Shown here: piece by piece, positions 16,374 to 19,066 of the stretch | How positions within the stretch are numbered: the first letter of the stretch is position 1 | Layout of the letters: every line of letters starts with the position of its first letter | Assembly: GCA_027490055.1 (NCBI GenBank) | Contig: JAIXYV010000070.1 | Span: 1-36,500 of the forward strand | Reading direction: 5' to 3' | Source: Bacteroidota bacterium | Lineage (GTDB): Bacteria > Bacteroidota > Bacteroidia > NS11-12g > UBA955 | Length of the DNA stretch: 36,500 bases | The notes under the pieces: generated by a model | What the model saw: only the letters and a program-made list of their open reading frames with translations | Database searches by the model: none | What the model was told of the DNA's origin: nothing | Position numbers and translations under genes: made by a program

Positions 16374-16447
16374 GGACCCGTAGCTTAATTGGATAGAGCA
16401 TCTGACTACGGATCAGAAGGTTGGGGGTTCGACTCCCTTCGGGTCCA
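16374..16447 (+). tRNA. tRNA-Arg (anticodon ACG)
   Basis: A 74-base cloverleaf. Acceptor GGACCCG pairs with CGGGTCC and is followed by discriminator A. The D-arm region is GCTTAATTGGATAGAGC. The anticodon stem TCTGA/TCAGA encloses loop CTACGGA, giving ACG (16408-16410) for Arg. The T-arm is GGGGGTTCGACTCCC-like. The terminal CCA is not encoded. A 131-bp repeat shared with tRNA-Val begins at its last acceptor bases. Confidence 0.95.
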
Positions 16448-16575
16448 CCCTGTAGCAGAGAAAACCCTGAAAACAACATTCAGGGTTTTTTTATGCAATT
16501 CGGTCAGGGTTTTCACGCTACAGGGTGAGACCCGTAGCGTGATGTAACGAAGTGTAATCTCTGCTACGGGGACAC
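16445..16575 (+). repeat. 131-bp tRNA-linked repeat, copy 1
   Basis: Identical to 18652-18782 except for one base (T at 16555, G at 18762). It starts in the last bases of tRNA-Arg. Inside are a terminator-like hairpin (AAAACCCTGAA / TTCAGGGTTTT plus T run, 16461-16492), the inverted pair CACGCTACAGGGT / ACCCGTAGCGTG, and outer arms CCTGTAGCAGAG / CTCTGCTACGGG. The whole unit can fold on itself. It resembles a REP-like mobile repeat or a conserved tRNA terminator cassette. Confidence 0.9.
16461..16492 (+). terminator. tRNA-Arg terminator within the repeat
   Basis: Stem AAAACCCTGAA / TTCAGGGTTTT around a seven-base loop, followed by T residues, 13 bases after the tRNA. Confidence 0.75.
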
Positions 16576-17075
16576 AATATTTTTAAATGCAGAGAAAACC
16601 CTGAGAACCACCTTCAGGCGGTTTTTTATTTCCCCACACCCACCCTCAACCTCACCCTCAAACTCATCCTCACCCTTTTAACCGCGGACCGCAGGTCCGA
16701 TGGTTAAAACTCTTCACCCTCACACTCACCCTCTCATTCCAATCATGTAGCGTGCGACCGAAGGAAGCTCTGCTACATGACTCTTTAAACCGAGGATCGC
16801 AGGTCCGACGGTTTAACCCCCTAAGAGCAAAGCTCTTAACGGGGCAGGCTGTGAACCGCAACTCCGACGCTTATAATTGGTGATCATGTTGGTGAGTTAT
16901 CGGTATGGCAGATGTTACGATGATTGTTTGCGTTGTGTTTTGTTCCCGGCGCCGCTGGCACCAGGTTAACCAGAATTTAGTTTCTTAAACAATCAATGTT
17001 AGTCCAGCGTCGCTGACGCATCAAAGTTTTTGGTCTGGAGCAGCAACCCCTATATCCTATATCCTCCCAATCCCC
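16576..17075. repeat. Repeat-rich intergenic region after tRNA-Arg
   Basis: No supported gene. It holds a module GGCGGTTTTTTATTTCCCCA (from 16617) and a G-free CTCACCCT-type tract (16624-16680 and again 16714-16740). It has palindromic GGACCGCAGGTCCGA (16686-16700) and variants at 16794 and 16853, a unit GTAGCGTG...CGAAG...CTCTGCTAC (16747-16776), and AGAGCAAAGCTCTTAACGGG (from 16824). Most of these recur after tRNA-Val. An open frame on the minus strand (16670-16861) is made of these repeats and is not believed. Confidence 0.75.
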
Positions 17076-17083
17076 TATTTTTG
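17076..17083 (+). promoter_or_regulatory. -7 promoter element TATTTTTG
   Basis: An exact TAnnTTTG nine bases before the ATG at 17093, so the leader would be very short. This favours 17093 over the upstream in-frame TTG at 17030. Confidence 0.45.
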
Positions 17084-17092
17084 TTATACTGT

Positions 17093-17644
17093 ATGACTGC
17101 TTTATCCTCTAAAGAACATTCTGAATTGTTGATGTTGCTGGAAACGCGTTTTTATCGCCATCAACAGCGACATGCCAATATTACCTGGCAGCAGGTATTT
17201 GATCGTTTAAAGGCGCATCCTGAAAAAATCAAAACCTTACAAGCAATGGAAGCCACGGGCGGAGAACCGGATTTAGTGGCGGTTGAAAATGATGGTGCTC
17301 TGGTGTTCTTTGACTGCTCGCCCGAGAGTCCGAAACAACGACGAAGTATCTGCTACGACCAAAAAGCTTTGGACGCTCGTAAAGAGAATAAGCCTGCCGA
17401 TAGTGCCTTGAATATGGCCAAAAATATTGGTATTGAGATACTCAACGAAGAGCAGTATCGATATCTTCAATCGCTGGGTGAGTTTGATCTTAAAACCTCC
17501 AGCTGGATTGAAACACCAGATAATATTCGTCAGCTGGGAGGCGCCTTATTCGGCGACAGAAGGTATAATACCGTCTTTTTTTACCACAATGGAGCTGAAT
17601 CGTATTATGCTGCCAGAGGTTTCAGAGGAAGTCTGAAAATTTAA
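17093..17644 (+). CDS. DUF4256 family protein
   Basis: About 183 residues from the ATG at 17093. The sequence matches the DUF4256 family strongly: [67 protein letters not shown] and [16 protein letters not shown]. Family members have the same length. It is a soluble cytoplasmic protein. The biochemical function of the family is not established as far as I know; the dense conserved charged residues suggest an enzyme or binding fold. The upstream extension to 17030 adds 21 residues without family support and runs through a promoter element. The ArsR operon follows immediately. Confidence 0.85.
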
Positions 17645-17657
17645 TTAAAAAGTTTAT

Positions 17658-17710
17658 TTGCGCAATTAAATGGTTGCGCATATATTTGCAACCAATTAGT
17701 TGCAAATATA
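17658..17710 (+). promoter_or_regulatory. ArsR promoter with two overlapping palindromic operators
   Basis: Promoter TTG (17658-17660), spacer 20, TATATTTG (17681-17688). Palindrome 1 is TGCGCAA-N8-TTGCGCA (17659-17680) and fills the spacer. Palindrome 2 is TATATTTGCAAC-N6-GTTGCAAATATA (17681-17692 and 17699-17710), perfect over 12 bases per arm; it covers the -7 element and ends at the A of the start codon. This arrangement fits autorepression by the ArsR protein encoded next. Confidence 0.75.
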
Positions 17711-18024
17711 TGGAAGCAAGACGAGACGTTTATCAAGCGATTGCCGATCCGACAAGACGAGCGATACTGAGTTTGCTATCATTGCAAGCCATGACACCTA
17801 ATGCTATAGCAGAGAATTTTGATTGTAGCAGACAGGCGGTATCTAAACATATTAAGGTGCTTAGCGACTGTCACTTGTTAAAGCAGAAGCAGAAGGGCCG
17901 AGAAATCTATTATCAGTTTAATCCATCAAAAATGAAAGAGGTAAAGAAGTGGCTGCATCAATTAGAGCAGTTATGGGAGAGTAGATTTGAGCAACTGGAT
18001 GAGGTATTAAAACATCAAAAATAA
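17710..18024 (+). CDS. ArsR-family transcriptional repressor (SRPBCC-linked type)
   Basis: A 104-residue winged-helix protein from the ATG at 17710. It opens with [17 protein letters not shown], typical of ArsR/SmtB proteins. The helix-turn-helix lies about 29-53 ([20 protein letters not shown]), followed by the wing with [10 protein letters not shown]. No Cys-x-Cys metal site is present, so it is not an arsenic or zinc sensor of the classic kind. This ArsR subgroup usually sits before SRPBCC/AHSA1 genes, as here, with a gap of five bases to the next gene. Two palindromes over the promoter suggest it represses its own operon. The inducer is unknown. Confidence 0.88.
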
Positions 18025-18029
18025 TTTAT

Positions 18030-18524
18030 ATGAGACAATCTATTTTTAACAAAGACATTGAGAATCATCGAATGATGATCACACGCGAGTTTAATGCCCC
18101 AATTGGTCAGGTATGGCGCGCATGGACAGATCCGAGCATTATCGATCTGTGGTGGGCTCCTAAACCCTGGAAAGCCGAAACTAAGGCGCACAACTTTACT
18201 GTTGGGGGCGAGTGGTTGTACTGCATGAACGGTCCTGAAGGCGAAAAGCACTGGGCAAAAGCAACATTTCATAAAGTAGAAGCGCCTGTTTTGTATGAAG
18301 GAACTGATGCTTTTTGCGATGAAGAGGGCATAGTTAATCCGGAGATACCATCGATGTATTGGAAAGTGCAGTTTGAAGACAAAGGCGTTAGCACTGTGGT
18401 AAATATAGAGATTACATTTGACTCAGCGGAGTCTTTAGAAACAATCGTCTCCATGGGCTTCCAGGAAGGCTTCACGATGGCGCATGGCAACCTCGACGAA
18501 TTAATAGAAAAAAACGCTATTTAG
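18030..18524 (+). CDS. SRPBCC/AHSA1 (START-like) domain protein
   Basis: A 164-residue single-domain protein. ITREFNAPIGQVWRAWTDP, LWWAPKPW, FTVGGEWLYCMNGPEG and GFQEGFTMAHGNLDELI are hallmark positions of the AHSA1-like SRPBCC family, which forms a deep hydrophobic ligand pocket. It starts five bases after the arsR stop, so it is in the same operon. The ligand and function are unknown; members are often annotated as activator of Hsp90 ATPase homologues, but that activity is not implied in bacteria. The promoter of tRNA-Val begins just after its stop codon. Confidence 0.88.
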   Translation: MRQSIFNKDIENHRMMITREFNAPIGQVWRAWTDPSIIDLWWAPKPWKAETKAHNFTVGGEWLYCMNGPEGEKHWAKATFHKVEAPVLYEGTDAFCDEEGIVNPEIPSMYWKVQFEDKGVSTVVNIEITFDSAESLETIVSMGFQEGFTMAHGNLDELIEKNAI

Positions 18525-18528
18525 TATT

Positions 18529-18557
18529 TTGCAAACTGCCCTCTGAGCGTATATTTG
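18529..18557 (+). promoter_or_regulatory. tRNA-Val promoter TTG-N18-TATATTTG
   Basis: TTG at 18529-18531 and an exact TAnnTTTG at 18550-18557, spacer 18, 22 bases before the mature tRNA. Confidence 0.65.
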
Positions 18558-18579
18558 CAGTCCTGTAAACAATTAACAG

Positions 18580-18654
18580 GGGCAATTAGCTCAGTTGGTT
18601 CAGAGCACTACCTCGACAAGGTAGGGGTCACTGGTTCGAGCCCAGTATTGCCCA
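18580..18654 (+). tRNA. tRNA-Val (anticodon GAC)
   Basis: A 75-base cloverleaf. Acceptor GGGCAAT pairs with ATTGCCC, discriminator A. The D-arm is AGCTCAGTTGGTTCAGAGC. The anticodon stem CTACC/GGTAG encloses loop TCGACAA, giving GAC, which reads Val codons. The T-loop is GGTTCGAGCC. CCA is not encoded. The 131-bp repeat starts in its acceptor end, as for tRNA-Arg. Confidence 0.95.
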
Positions 18655-18782
18655 CCCTGTAGCAGAGAAAACCCTGAAAACAACATTCAGGGTTTTTTTA
18701 TGCAATTCGGTCAGGGTTTTCACGCTACAGGGTGAGACCCGTAGCGTGATGTAACGAAGTGGAATCTCTGCTACGGGGACAC
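18652..18782 (+). repeat. 131-bp tRNA-linked repeat, copy 2
   Basis: 130 of 131 bases match 16445-16575, offset exactly 2207 bases. It includes the same terminator-like hairpin and internal inverted repeats. Both copies begin at the end of a tRNA and in the same orientation. Confidence 0.9.
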
Positions 18783-19066
18783 CTTCAAATCACTTTTGAA
18801 AACATTTTCACCAAGTTCGACATTTCGCTAATTGCCTCCACCAAATAAAAATACCGCCGCAAGGCGGTTTTTTATTTCCCCACACTCAAACTCACCCTCA
18901 TCCTCAAACTCAACCTCACCCTTTTTACCCCCGTAGAGCAAAGCTCTTAACGGGGCAGGCTGTGGACCGCAGGTCCGACGGCTATAATGTAATTATGAAG
19001 TCTACAGTTCAGCGCTTACAAGATTAAAAGCACTTCAGTGACCCATTCTAGATTATAAAGATGCTT
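18783..19066. repeat. Repeat-rich intergenic region after tRNA-Val
   Basis: No ORF. It repeats, in the same order as after tRNA-Arg, the GGCGGTTTTTTATTTCCCCA module (from 18863), a G-free CTCACCCT tract (about 18880-18932), AGAGCAAAGCTCTTAACGGG (from 18935) and GGACCGCAGGTCCGA (18964-18978). The stretch 18783-18862 is not shared. Confidence 0.75.

Follow-up and report, generated by a model that had tools for sequence, protein, structure and literature searches.

Two near-identical 131-bp repeats abut the 3′ ends of two different tRNA genes in a 36,500-nucleotide stretch of a Bacteroidota bacterium of the class Bacteroidia (lineage NS11-12g; UBA955; GenBank assembly GCA_027490055.1, contig JAIXYV010000070.1, positions 1 to 36,500, forward strand), to which we refer as the window. 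Our analysis indicates that the repeat is probably the hairpin left end of a family of homing-type selfish elements that occupy the 3′ ends of tRNA and transfer-messenger RNA (tmRNA) genes. The complete element consists of two hairpins, HP1 and HP2, followed by about 40–100 nt, a gene of ~90 codons for a GIY-YIG nuclease, and a right end that resembles a T arm with CCA. The basis for this reading is observed, namely location, orientation, structure, gene content, filled and empty sites, and the duplication of tRNA ends in a sister clade. The identity and location of the element are well supported, while its mobility, driven by the nuclease, is what we infer from these observations. The nuclease gene of complete copies lies beyond what the window sequence could reveal.

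Two copies behind different tRNA genes

A preliminary description of the window, made from its sequence alone, reported a 131-bp repeat with one differing base that begins in the last acceptor bases of two tRNA genes and keeps the same orientation in both. Pairwise comparison bears this out: the copies at 16445–16575 and 18652–18782 differ solely at 16555 (T/G), their identity ends sharply at both borders, and both are oriented alike, on the same strand as their tRNAs. ARAGORN and Rfam place the 3′ end of tRNA-Arg(acg) at 16449/16447 and that of tRNA-Val(gac) at 18656/18654. Read from the sequence, the shared stretch opens with two bases (CC) that are part of the acceptor stem of either tRNA, followed by the discriminator (A); since these bases belong to the tRNAs, the element proper begins at 16448 and 18655. 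The terminator-type hairpin described for each copy is present (Table 1), as are the nested inverted repeats built from GTAGCAGAG/GTAGCGTG, for which folding gave z = -8.8 as DNA and z = -7.4 as RNA when tRNA and repeat were folded together. The embedded hairpin also supports the proposal that the repeat may bring a terminator to the tRNA. Of the unlike flanks claimed earlier, the upstream part stood, with different tRNAs and a longest match of 17 bp within 1000 bp; downstream the two copies have dispersed repeats in common (68 bp at 90% and 66 bp at 88%).

The GIY-YIG nuclease gene is absent from both window copies. Copy 1, behind tRNA-Arg, is a left end alone. Copy 2, behind tRNA-Val, joins the HP1–HP2 left end to a right end of the pseudo-T-arm type, 31–60 nt past the end of the copy and similar to the right ends of L066, L074, L075 and L031, and holds no open reading frame (ORF). 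Because it has a right end without an ORF, the Val copy looks like an internal-deletion derivative. We read the two copies as putative non-autonomous derivatives, comparable to miniature inverted-repeat transposable elements (MITE-like), of which copy 2 has both ends.

The near-identity over 131 bp could stem from a simple segmental duplication, or from gene conversion that linked the two tRNA loci, and the similar dispersed repeats downstream would fit such an account. However, the tRNAs differ, the upstream sequences match over 17 bp at most, a third copy sits at the tmRNA, and congeners carry copies behind many tRNAs. We give this account hardly any credence, and as a full explanation it is rejected by the copies elsewhere. 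The preliminary description had named as its refutation the existence of only two copies, born of such a duplication; the search returned instead the third copy, the congener copies and empty orthologous tRNA ends. Gene conversion may have homogenised the two window copies.

Distribution in the genome and its congeners

The bacterium's own genome contains three full copies, at tRNA-Arg, tRNA-Val and tmRNA. The third (85%) adjoins the tmRNA, with decayed copies in tandem after it. Directly behind tRNA-Ala and tRNA-Phe stand shorter relatives, and tRNA-Asn has an HP2-like match about 150 nt downstream. By BLAST, 15 of 39 genomes have matches, namely the own genome, 12 of 16 congeners and 2 of 22 others. 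A covariance model built from 19 copies matches at E <= 0.01 in 14 of the 17 genus genomes, own included. From its 57 best matches (E <= 5.6e-7) we examined 54, the three others being G011:C119:107344, G003:C99:9792 and G004:C106:5646; the 19 copies used to build the model are themselves among the 54.

Nearly half of these matches (26/54) abut a complete tRNA or tmRNA at its 3′ end, sharing the strand of the RNA gene, as the test demanded. They cover ten RNA species: Arg(acg), Arg(ccg), Arg(cct), Val(gac), Met, Phe, Ala, Leu(caa), Glu and tmRNA. Another 17 show a T-arm-like motif at the right distance, under a loose test (TTCGA or TTCAA 14–34 nt upstream) by which at least one of them (G012:C49:6332) looks like chance; G010:C68:13525 is a tmRNA end by Rfam, and G010:C42 looks like a tRNA cut at the contig end. 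The other 11 comprise six that lie 62–423 nt behind a tRNA or tmRNA, one at a contig end, one in the array that follows the tmRNA of G010:C68:13525 and three with none of these. The third full copy and the many other tRNAs occupied in congeners support the earlier suggestion of a mobile repeat that targets tRNA ends.

On contig C101 of the own genome, a decayed tRNA-Ala-like sequence was seen by eye directly upstream of the intact tRNA-Ala (L007:1097-1163, minus strand).

Hairpin structure

The unit is composed of HP1, whose arms surround the terminator-type hairpin, and HP2, and HP1 repeats the HP2-type palindrome in inverted form. The signature palindrome X-GTG..CTCT-X′ with a perfect arm of at least 6 occurs five times in the window, compared with a mean of 0.04 and a maximum of 1 for 100 control inner pairs. 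It was found nowhere in 294 kb of other G000 sequence, which holds seven tRNAs, nor in 286 kb of G013 sequence not chosen for matches; two further palindromes are present in two G013 stretches picked for known matches. Six of these seven palindromes lie at most 400 bp behind a called tRNA and the seventh lies behind a tRNA fragment (L021).

The tandem-hairpin structure was taken from RNAalifold on the very alignment of 19 copies that was later scored for covariation. In this alignment 94.6% of cells are paired (77.8 when shuffled), 22 of 32 pairs show double changes (shuffled 13.7) in 114 cells (shuffled 32.7), and the covariation score reaches 0.514 versus 0.206. The count of pair types is unexceptional, with 43 versus 40.1 in shuffled alignments, a value that 69 of 500 shuffles attain. 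Cross-pairing between HP1 and HP2, which is the lowest-energy fold for the own copy, is disfavoured as a conserved structure, with 82.5% paired and a covariation of 0.247 across the 19 copies. Apart from tRNA and tmRNA, no Rfam family was detected at the gathering threshold. Small inserts like CCCTATxGTAAAATAAATACACCATAGGG recur at the 3′ arms of HP1 in several species (L003 about 1890-1926; L021; L102).

Repetitive extragenic palindromic (REP) sequences and bacterial interspersed mosaic elements (BIMEs), which go with REP-associated tyrosine transposases (RAYTs), are likewise intergenic, paired inverted palindromes with a fixed internal mismatch. HP1 and HP2 as inverted copies of one palindrome, with the fixed inner mismatch GTG/CTCT, have just such a BIME-like layout, so that movement by a RAYT (Y1) transposase has to be weighed. 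Against it, the palindrome is present at 0 of 10 Y1-transposase loci examined, out of 25 genus matches, and the own genome has a single weak Y1 match (25.6 bits). We hold a REP/BIME-like origin to be highly improbable, and a RAYT origin is rejected on the result at the ten Y1 loci. The Bacteroidota element further differs from REP/BIME in its position at tRNA 3′ ends and its link to a GIY-YIG gene, with no RAYT link in the loci examined.

The GIY-YIG nuclease gene

In several congeners the unit continues into a ~90-aa GIY-YIG ORF. The own genome also has such an ORF, behind the tmRNA array, with a Pfam GIY-YIG domain (E 7.5e-15). The proteins, mostly ~80–100 aa, amount to a bare UPF0213/Slx1-like domain, and the family profile matches by sequence the UPF0213/Slx1 structures PDB 1zg2, 1ywl and 7wme (E 6e-8 to 6e-4). 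The catalytic residues Y8, Y19, G21, R29, H33 and E65 are invariant in 18 of 18 aligned ORFs, which had been picked as intact.

The association with tRNA genes is visible across the genus. PF01541 has 76 matches in the 17 genus genomes, 47 of them standalone, with frames <=231 aa. More than half of the standalone ORFs (26/47) have a same-strand tRNA or tmRNA no more than 600 nt upstream. The chance of such proximity is 0.43%, assuming 40 tRNAs in 2.8 Mb, which would give P about 3e-49 for independent rows; the rows come from related genomes and hence are not independent. The same proximity was seen in 0 of 9 long-frame GIY controls, those of 29 long-frame rows that have loci, judged by frame length to be of UvrC or DnaQ type. 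A phage origin of the gene was considered and rejected, as only four phage records match the query protein, all weakly and all from Listeria phages.

Sister elements across the class

Nuclease relatives at E <= 1e-8 occur in 106 of 149 sampled class genomes, own included. A set of 79 ORFs at 50 loci was analysed with a profile built from tRNA-linked proteins; it includes L230 and L252, which duplicate other loci, and in several cases one tRNA serves more than one ORF. Of the 79, 44 are preceded on their own strand by a tRNA or tmRNA no more than 500 nt away. In 34 of these 44, an exact 13–41-nt copy of the tRNA 3′ end follows within 150 nt past the stop codon. Control tRNAs without an ORF gave no tail copy of at least 12 nt in the next 800 nt (0/16). 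One genome contains tandem arrays, with ten units every 457 bp after tRNA-Met and at least four every 379 bp after tRNA-Asn.

To place these relatives, a quick tree was built from 113 domains, obtained from 133 by collapsing repeats of one locus and label. Twelve repeat loci were skipped, matches below 50 bits or in frames >260 aa were dropped, and 48 of the 133 domains have no tRNA within 600 nt. The tree has few columns and 51 of its 108 forks are open. Clade B, supported by a Shimodaira–Hasegawa-like approximate likelihood ratio test value (SH-aLRT) of 94, shows a median of 183 nt between tRNA and domain, and its target changes number 17, compared with a mean of 20.1 and a minimum of 17 in 200 shuffles. 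In clade A, the remaining domains, the median distance is 53 nt, too short for HP1–HP2, and 11 target changes compare with a mean of 27.4 and a minimum of 23. Clade B is promiscuous across tRNAs and clade A is tRNA-specific.

The two-hairpin model matches only two of 48 class-wide loci, L240 and L245, and both belong to clade B. Relatives in this clade include Agriterribacter humi (tRNA-Phe), Pseudochryseolinea flava (Glu), a Daejeonella metagenome-assembled genome (MAG; tmRNA) and many Bacteroidota MAGs, as well as Robiginitalea marina, where no tRNA was called upstream. A tRNA or tmRNA lies within 700 nt upstream at 29 of 35 clade B loci; nine of the 35 are the genus genomes again, so that 20 of 26 are new. 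At these 26 non-genus loci the hairpin model (E < 1e-4) is found upstream of the ORF in 15, one of them about 1 kb off. It stands between the called tRNA or tmRNA and the ORF in 11 and begins exactly at the RNA 3′ end in 10. In another class of the phylum, locus L322 shows tRNA-Cys followed by a GIY ORF, with a pseudo-tRNA-Cys carrying an inserted hairpin ahead of the tRNA, a comparable pattern at a greater distance.

The hairpins might instead serve the host, as a 3′ trailer of tRNA and tmRNA with a terminator, selected for termination or 3′ maturation and spread by gene conversion, with the GIY ORFs as hitchhikers. The strong, covarying, RNA-like structure, the embedded terminator-type hairpin and the tRNA's orientation in 26 of 26 abutting matches (where the test required the same strand) agree with such a role. 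It accounts less readily for the Arg(acg) orthologues of congeners that do without hairpins (6/13), for copies behind tRNA fragments and pseudo-T-arms, for the repeated nuclease linkage, including the 11 of 26 non-genus loci with the model between RNA gene and ORF, and for hairpin-less sister elements that also duplicate tRNA ends. We therefore consider a host RNA element unlikely.

Traces of mobility and a proposed mechanism

In genome G006, two ORF-bearing units of ~500 bp stand behind tRNA-Phe and tRNA-Arg(acg) and are 91% identical (465/511). Apart from a common T-arm motif, identity starts at the tRNA end and stops in a pseudo-T-arm, GTTCGACA, right after the ORF. The tRNA 3′ ends themselves are unlike, each matching its own tRNA. 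As identity begins only after these differing ends, the element brings no tRNA end along at its left. Right ends of similar type follow the ORF in G015, G014 and G004, the last with a broken ORF.

Comparison of orthologous loci, made by eye over 420 nt, revealed filled and empty sites. Among 13 Arg(acg) orthologues, three have the full unit, two a short variant, one a remnant and six none, and one lies at a contig border; the empty tRNA ends that the preliminary description proposed to look for thus exist. Of five Val(gac) loci, two have the unit, two the short variant and one nothing. Ten Val(tac) loci, to which L061 and L095 were added for carrying the ORF, show the nuclease or its remains in three, a tRNA-tail remnant in two and no tail copy in five. 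In G003 the same short variant of ~100 bp stands behind both Arg(acg) and Val(gac), so that copying between these two tRNAs occurred there too.

The 3′ ends of tRNA genes are a favourite docking site of integrating elements, which use integrases. The units could accordingly be remnants of tRNA-targeting integrative elements, with tyrosine-integrase attachment sites in the form of an intact tRNA at the left and a degenerate tRNA end at the right, and the direct repeats of the tRNA 3′ end that flank many units (34/44 linked ORFs versus 0/16 controls) would be expected of them. Yet units of ~130–500 bp can hold a single ORF, the nuclease, or none; the ORFs listed around the copies include no recognised integrase, though no dedicated integrase search was run; and identity in G006 starts after the differing tRNA ends. 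Taken with these points, an integrative origin appears very improbable.

For the homing-type element that we favour, the following path can be envisaged. The nuclease would break DNA at or near a tRNA 3′ end without the element, and repair from an element-bearing locus would copy the unit in by homing-type gene conversion. The tRNA would be kept whole, with the element providing a built-in terminator, and a copy or mimic of the tRNA end would be left at the far side, where further units could stack into arrays. Arrays and tRNA-tail duplications would be the expected traces of such a process. The nuclease would thereby drive movement and presumably act in trans on hairpin-only copies. Inspection by eye of duplicated tRNA ends behind GIY ORFs (L077, L089, L018, L079, L092, L085, L062) showed an anticodon arm or T-arm replaced or split by a short hairpin (TCCCGCAT..ATGCGGGA, CCCCGAT..ATCGGGG), and perhaps these hairpins block re-cutting. 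On how a donor would avoid cleaving itself, the tRNA end is intact and some duplicated ends are altered by hairpins, yet tandem arrays exist.

Several observations weigh against this interpretation. The tRNA survives insertion whole, so that no obvious destruction of the site takes place, unlike in classical homing, and hairpin-only copies may owe their spread to ordinary gene conversion. A single ORF of the hairpin-bearing clade is present in the own genome, within the decayed array behind the tmRNA, and several nuclease copies contain stop codons. In the genus, 21 of the 47 standalone GIY ORFs are more than 600 nt from any called tRNA; nine of these have tRNA remnants, recognised by eye, or a tRNA at 794–829 nt, and twelve have neither. 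Across the class, 35 of 79 ORFs lack a called tRNA in the 500 nt upstream, some of them being later array members, and in 10 of the 44 linked ORFs the tail copy is 10 nt at most, where shuffled tails give 5–7 nt. Outside the class the link is weaker, with a tRNA just upstream in two of the nine best loci. Finally, most of the genomes compared are MAGs.

Six of the twelve GIY ORFs with neither tRNA nor remnant (L055-L060, in other genus genomes) form a second group, set apart on inspection by eye, and several stand beside other palindromic repeats, e.g. CTTCGACTTCGCTCAGGGTAC and TTCGACAGGCTCAGCATGAC. Several repeat families may have GIY-YIG genes as partners.

Features of the two window loci

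The coordinates of the host genes, the two copies and their parts are collected in Table 1. Further dispersed repeats lie at 16680-16880 and 18862-18992 of the window (ACCGCAGGTCCGACGG, AGAGCAAAGCTCTTAACGGGGCAGGCTG, CACCCTCAACCTCACCCTC); the stretch 18862-18992 has 19 matches in the own genome, itself counted.

Table 1. Positions of the tRNA genes, element copies and associated hairpins in the window.
Feature	Position	Strand	Basis or remarks
tRNA-Arg(acg), host RNA gene	16374..16447	+	CCA not encoded (ACCC in DNA)
Element copy 1	16448..16575	+	16445-16575 minus shared acceptor CC and discriminator A
HP1 of copy 1	16446..16527	+	arms CACCCTGTAGC-AGAG ... CAC-GCTACAGGGTG, terminator hairpin in loop
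Terminator-type hairpin with T-run inside HP1, copy 1	16461..16492	+	sequence and fold; unlisted by consensus terminator scanner
HP2 of copy 1	16531..16570	+	CCCGTAGC-GTG ... CTCT-GCTACGGG
Remnant of a second HP1 fused to probable own terminator of tRNA-Arg	16589..16629	+	locus L005
Additional HP2-type palindrome	16743..16780	+	TCATGTAGC-GTG..CTCT-GCTACATGA
tRNA-Val(gac), host RNA gene	18580..18654	+	ARAGORN and Rfam
Element copy 2	18655..18782	+	near-identity to copy 1
HP1 of copy 2	18653..18734	+	palindrome scan
Terminator-type hairpin inside HP1, copy 2	18668..18699	+	by position with copy 1
HP2 of copy 2	18738..18777	+	palindrome scan
Right end of copy 2: degenerate tRNA T-arm + CCACC (AAGTTCGACATTTCGCTAATTGCCTCCACC)	18813..18842	+	resembles right ends after GIY-YIG ORF in congeners
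Likely original tRNA-Val terminator, displaced by insertion	18853..18868	+	consensus terminator scan

Relation to known systems and outlook

The rtT repeats of the Escherichia coli tyrT operon are tandem repeats downstream of a tRNA that include a copy of the tRNA 3′ end. To our knowledge they are confined to tyrT and come without a nuclease. The Bacteroidota element, in contrast, carries a nuclease, and it has no match to the Rfam RtT model at threshold.

In behaviour, the nearest known system is SegB of phages T4/T6. SegB of T6 is a GIY-YIG nuclease encoded beside phage tRNAs that drives tandem amplification, likely via recombination between short homologies (PMC13096335), and some free-standing nucleases of T4 have embedded terminators or hairpins (PMC2988022). 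With the GIY-YIG homing endonucleases of T-even phages, SegB above all, the Bacteroidota element shares a free-standing gene beside tRNA genes with a wide range of isotypes (PMC13096335), and it resembles the phage system in tandem amplification by short-homology recombination and in the hairpins or terminators found at some phage genes (PMC13096335, PMC2988022). Unlike SegB, it resides in bacterial chromosomes, in fixed orientation directly at tRNA 3′ ends that become duplicated, and it has a conserved two-hairpin leader in one clade as well as ORF-less derivatives. The survey in the SegB paper, as far as the available text goes, covers phage and archaeal-virus proteins, not bacterial chromosomes (PMC13096335).

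By sequence family, the encoded protein is like the UPF0213/Slx1-like GIY-YIG nucleases, a group described as a minimal stand-alone nuclease family; the text of that paper contains no word starting with 'Bacteroid' and three mentions of 'tRNA', none on tRNA genes as sites (PMC1564403). Among the titles and abstract starts listed in searches of the open-licence literature, which for the larger results covered the first 10–20 papers, none describes GIY-YIG genes that nest at the 3′ ends of bacterial tRNAs; this is no proof of absence.

More tentatively, the element could represent a distinct class of mobile element in Bacteroidia, a reading that we put forward as possible but hold at less than even odds. 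Its units would stay under ~500 bp, with a bare Slx1-like GIY-YIG nuclease as the sole gene and recognition by DNA (or RNA) structure. One clade would be tRNA-specific, and the hairpin clade would be promiscuous by means of its paired palindromes and mobilise ORF-less hairpin copies. If true, this would be a transposon-like system that has neither transposase nor integrase nor reverse transcriptase of its own. Where other elements use integrases, a nuclease of about 90 residues seems to be enough here. With its target changes in clade A and clade B, the family offers a minimal system in which to study gain and loss of target specificity in a homing nuclease, and it suggests an origin for tRNA pseudo-ends and tandem arrays of tRNA tails.

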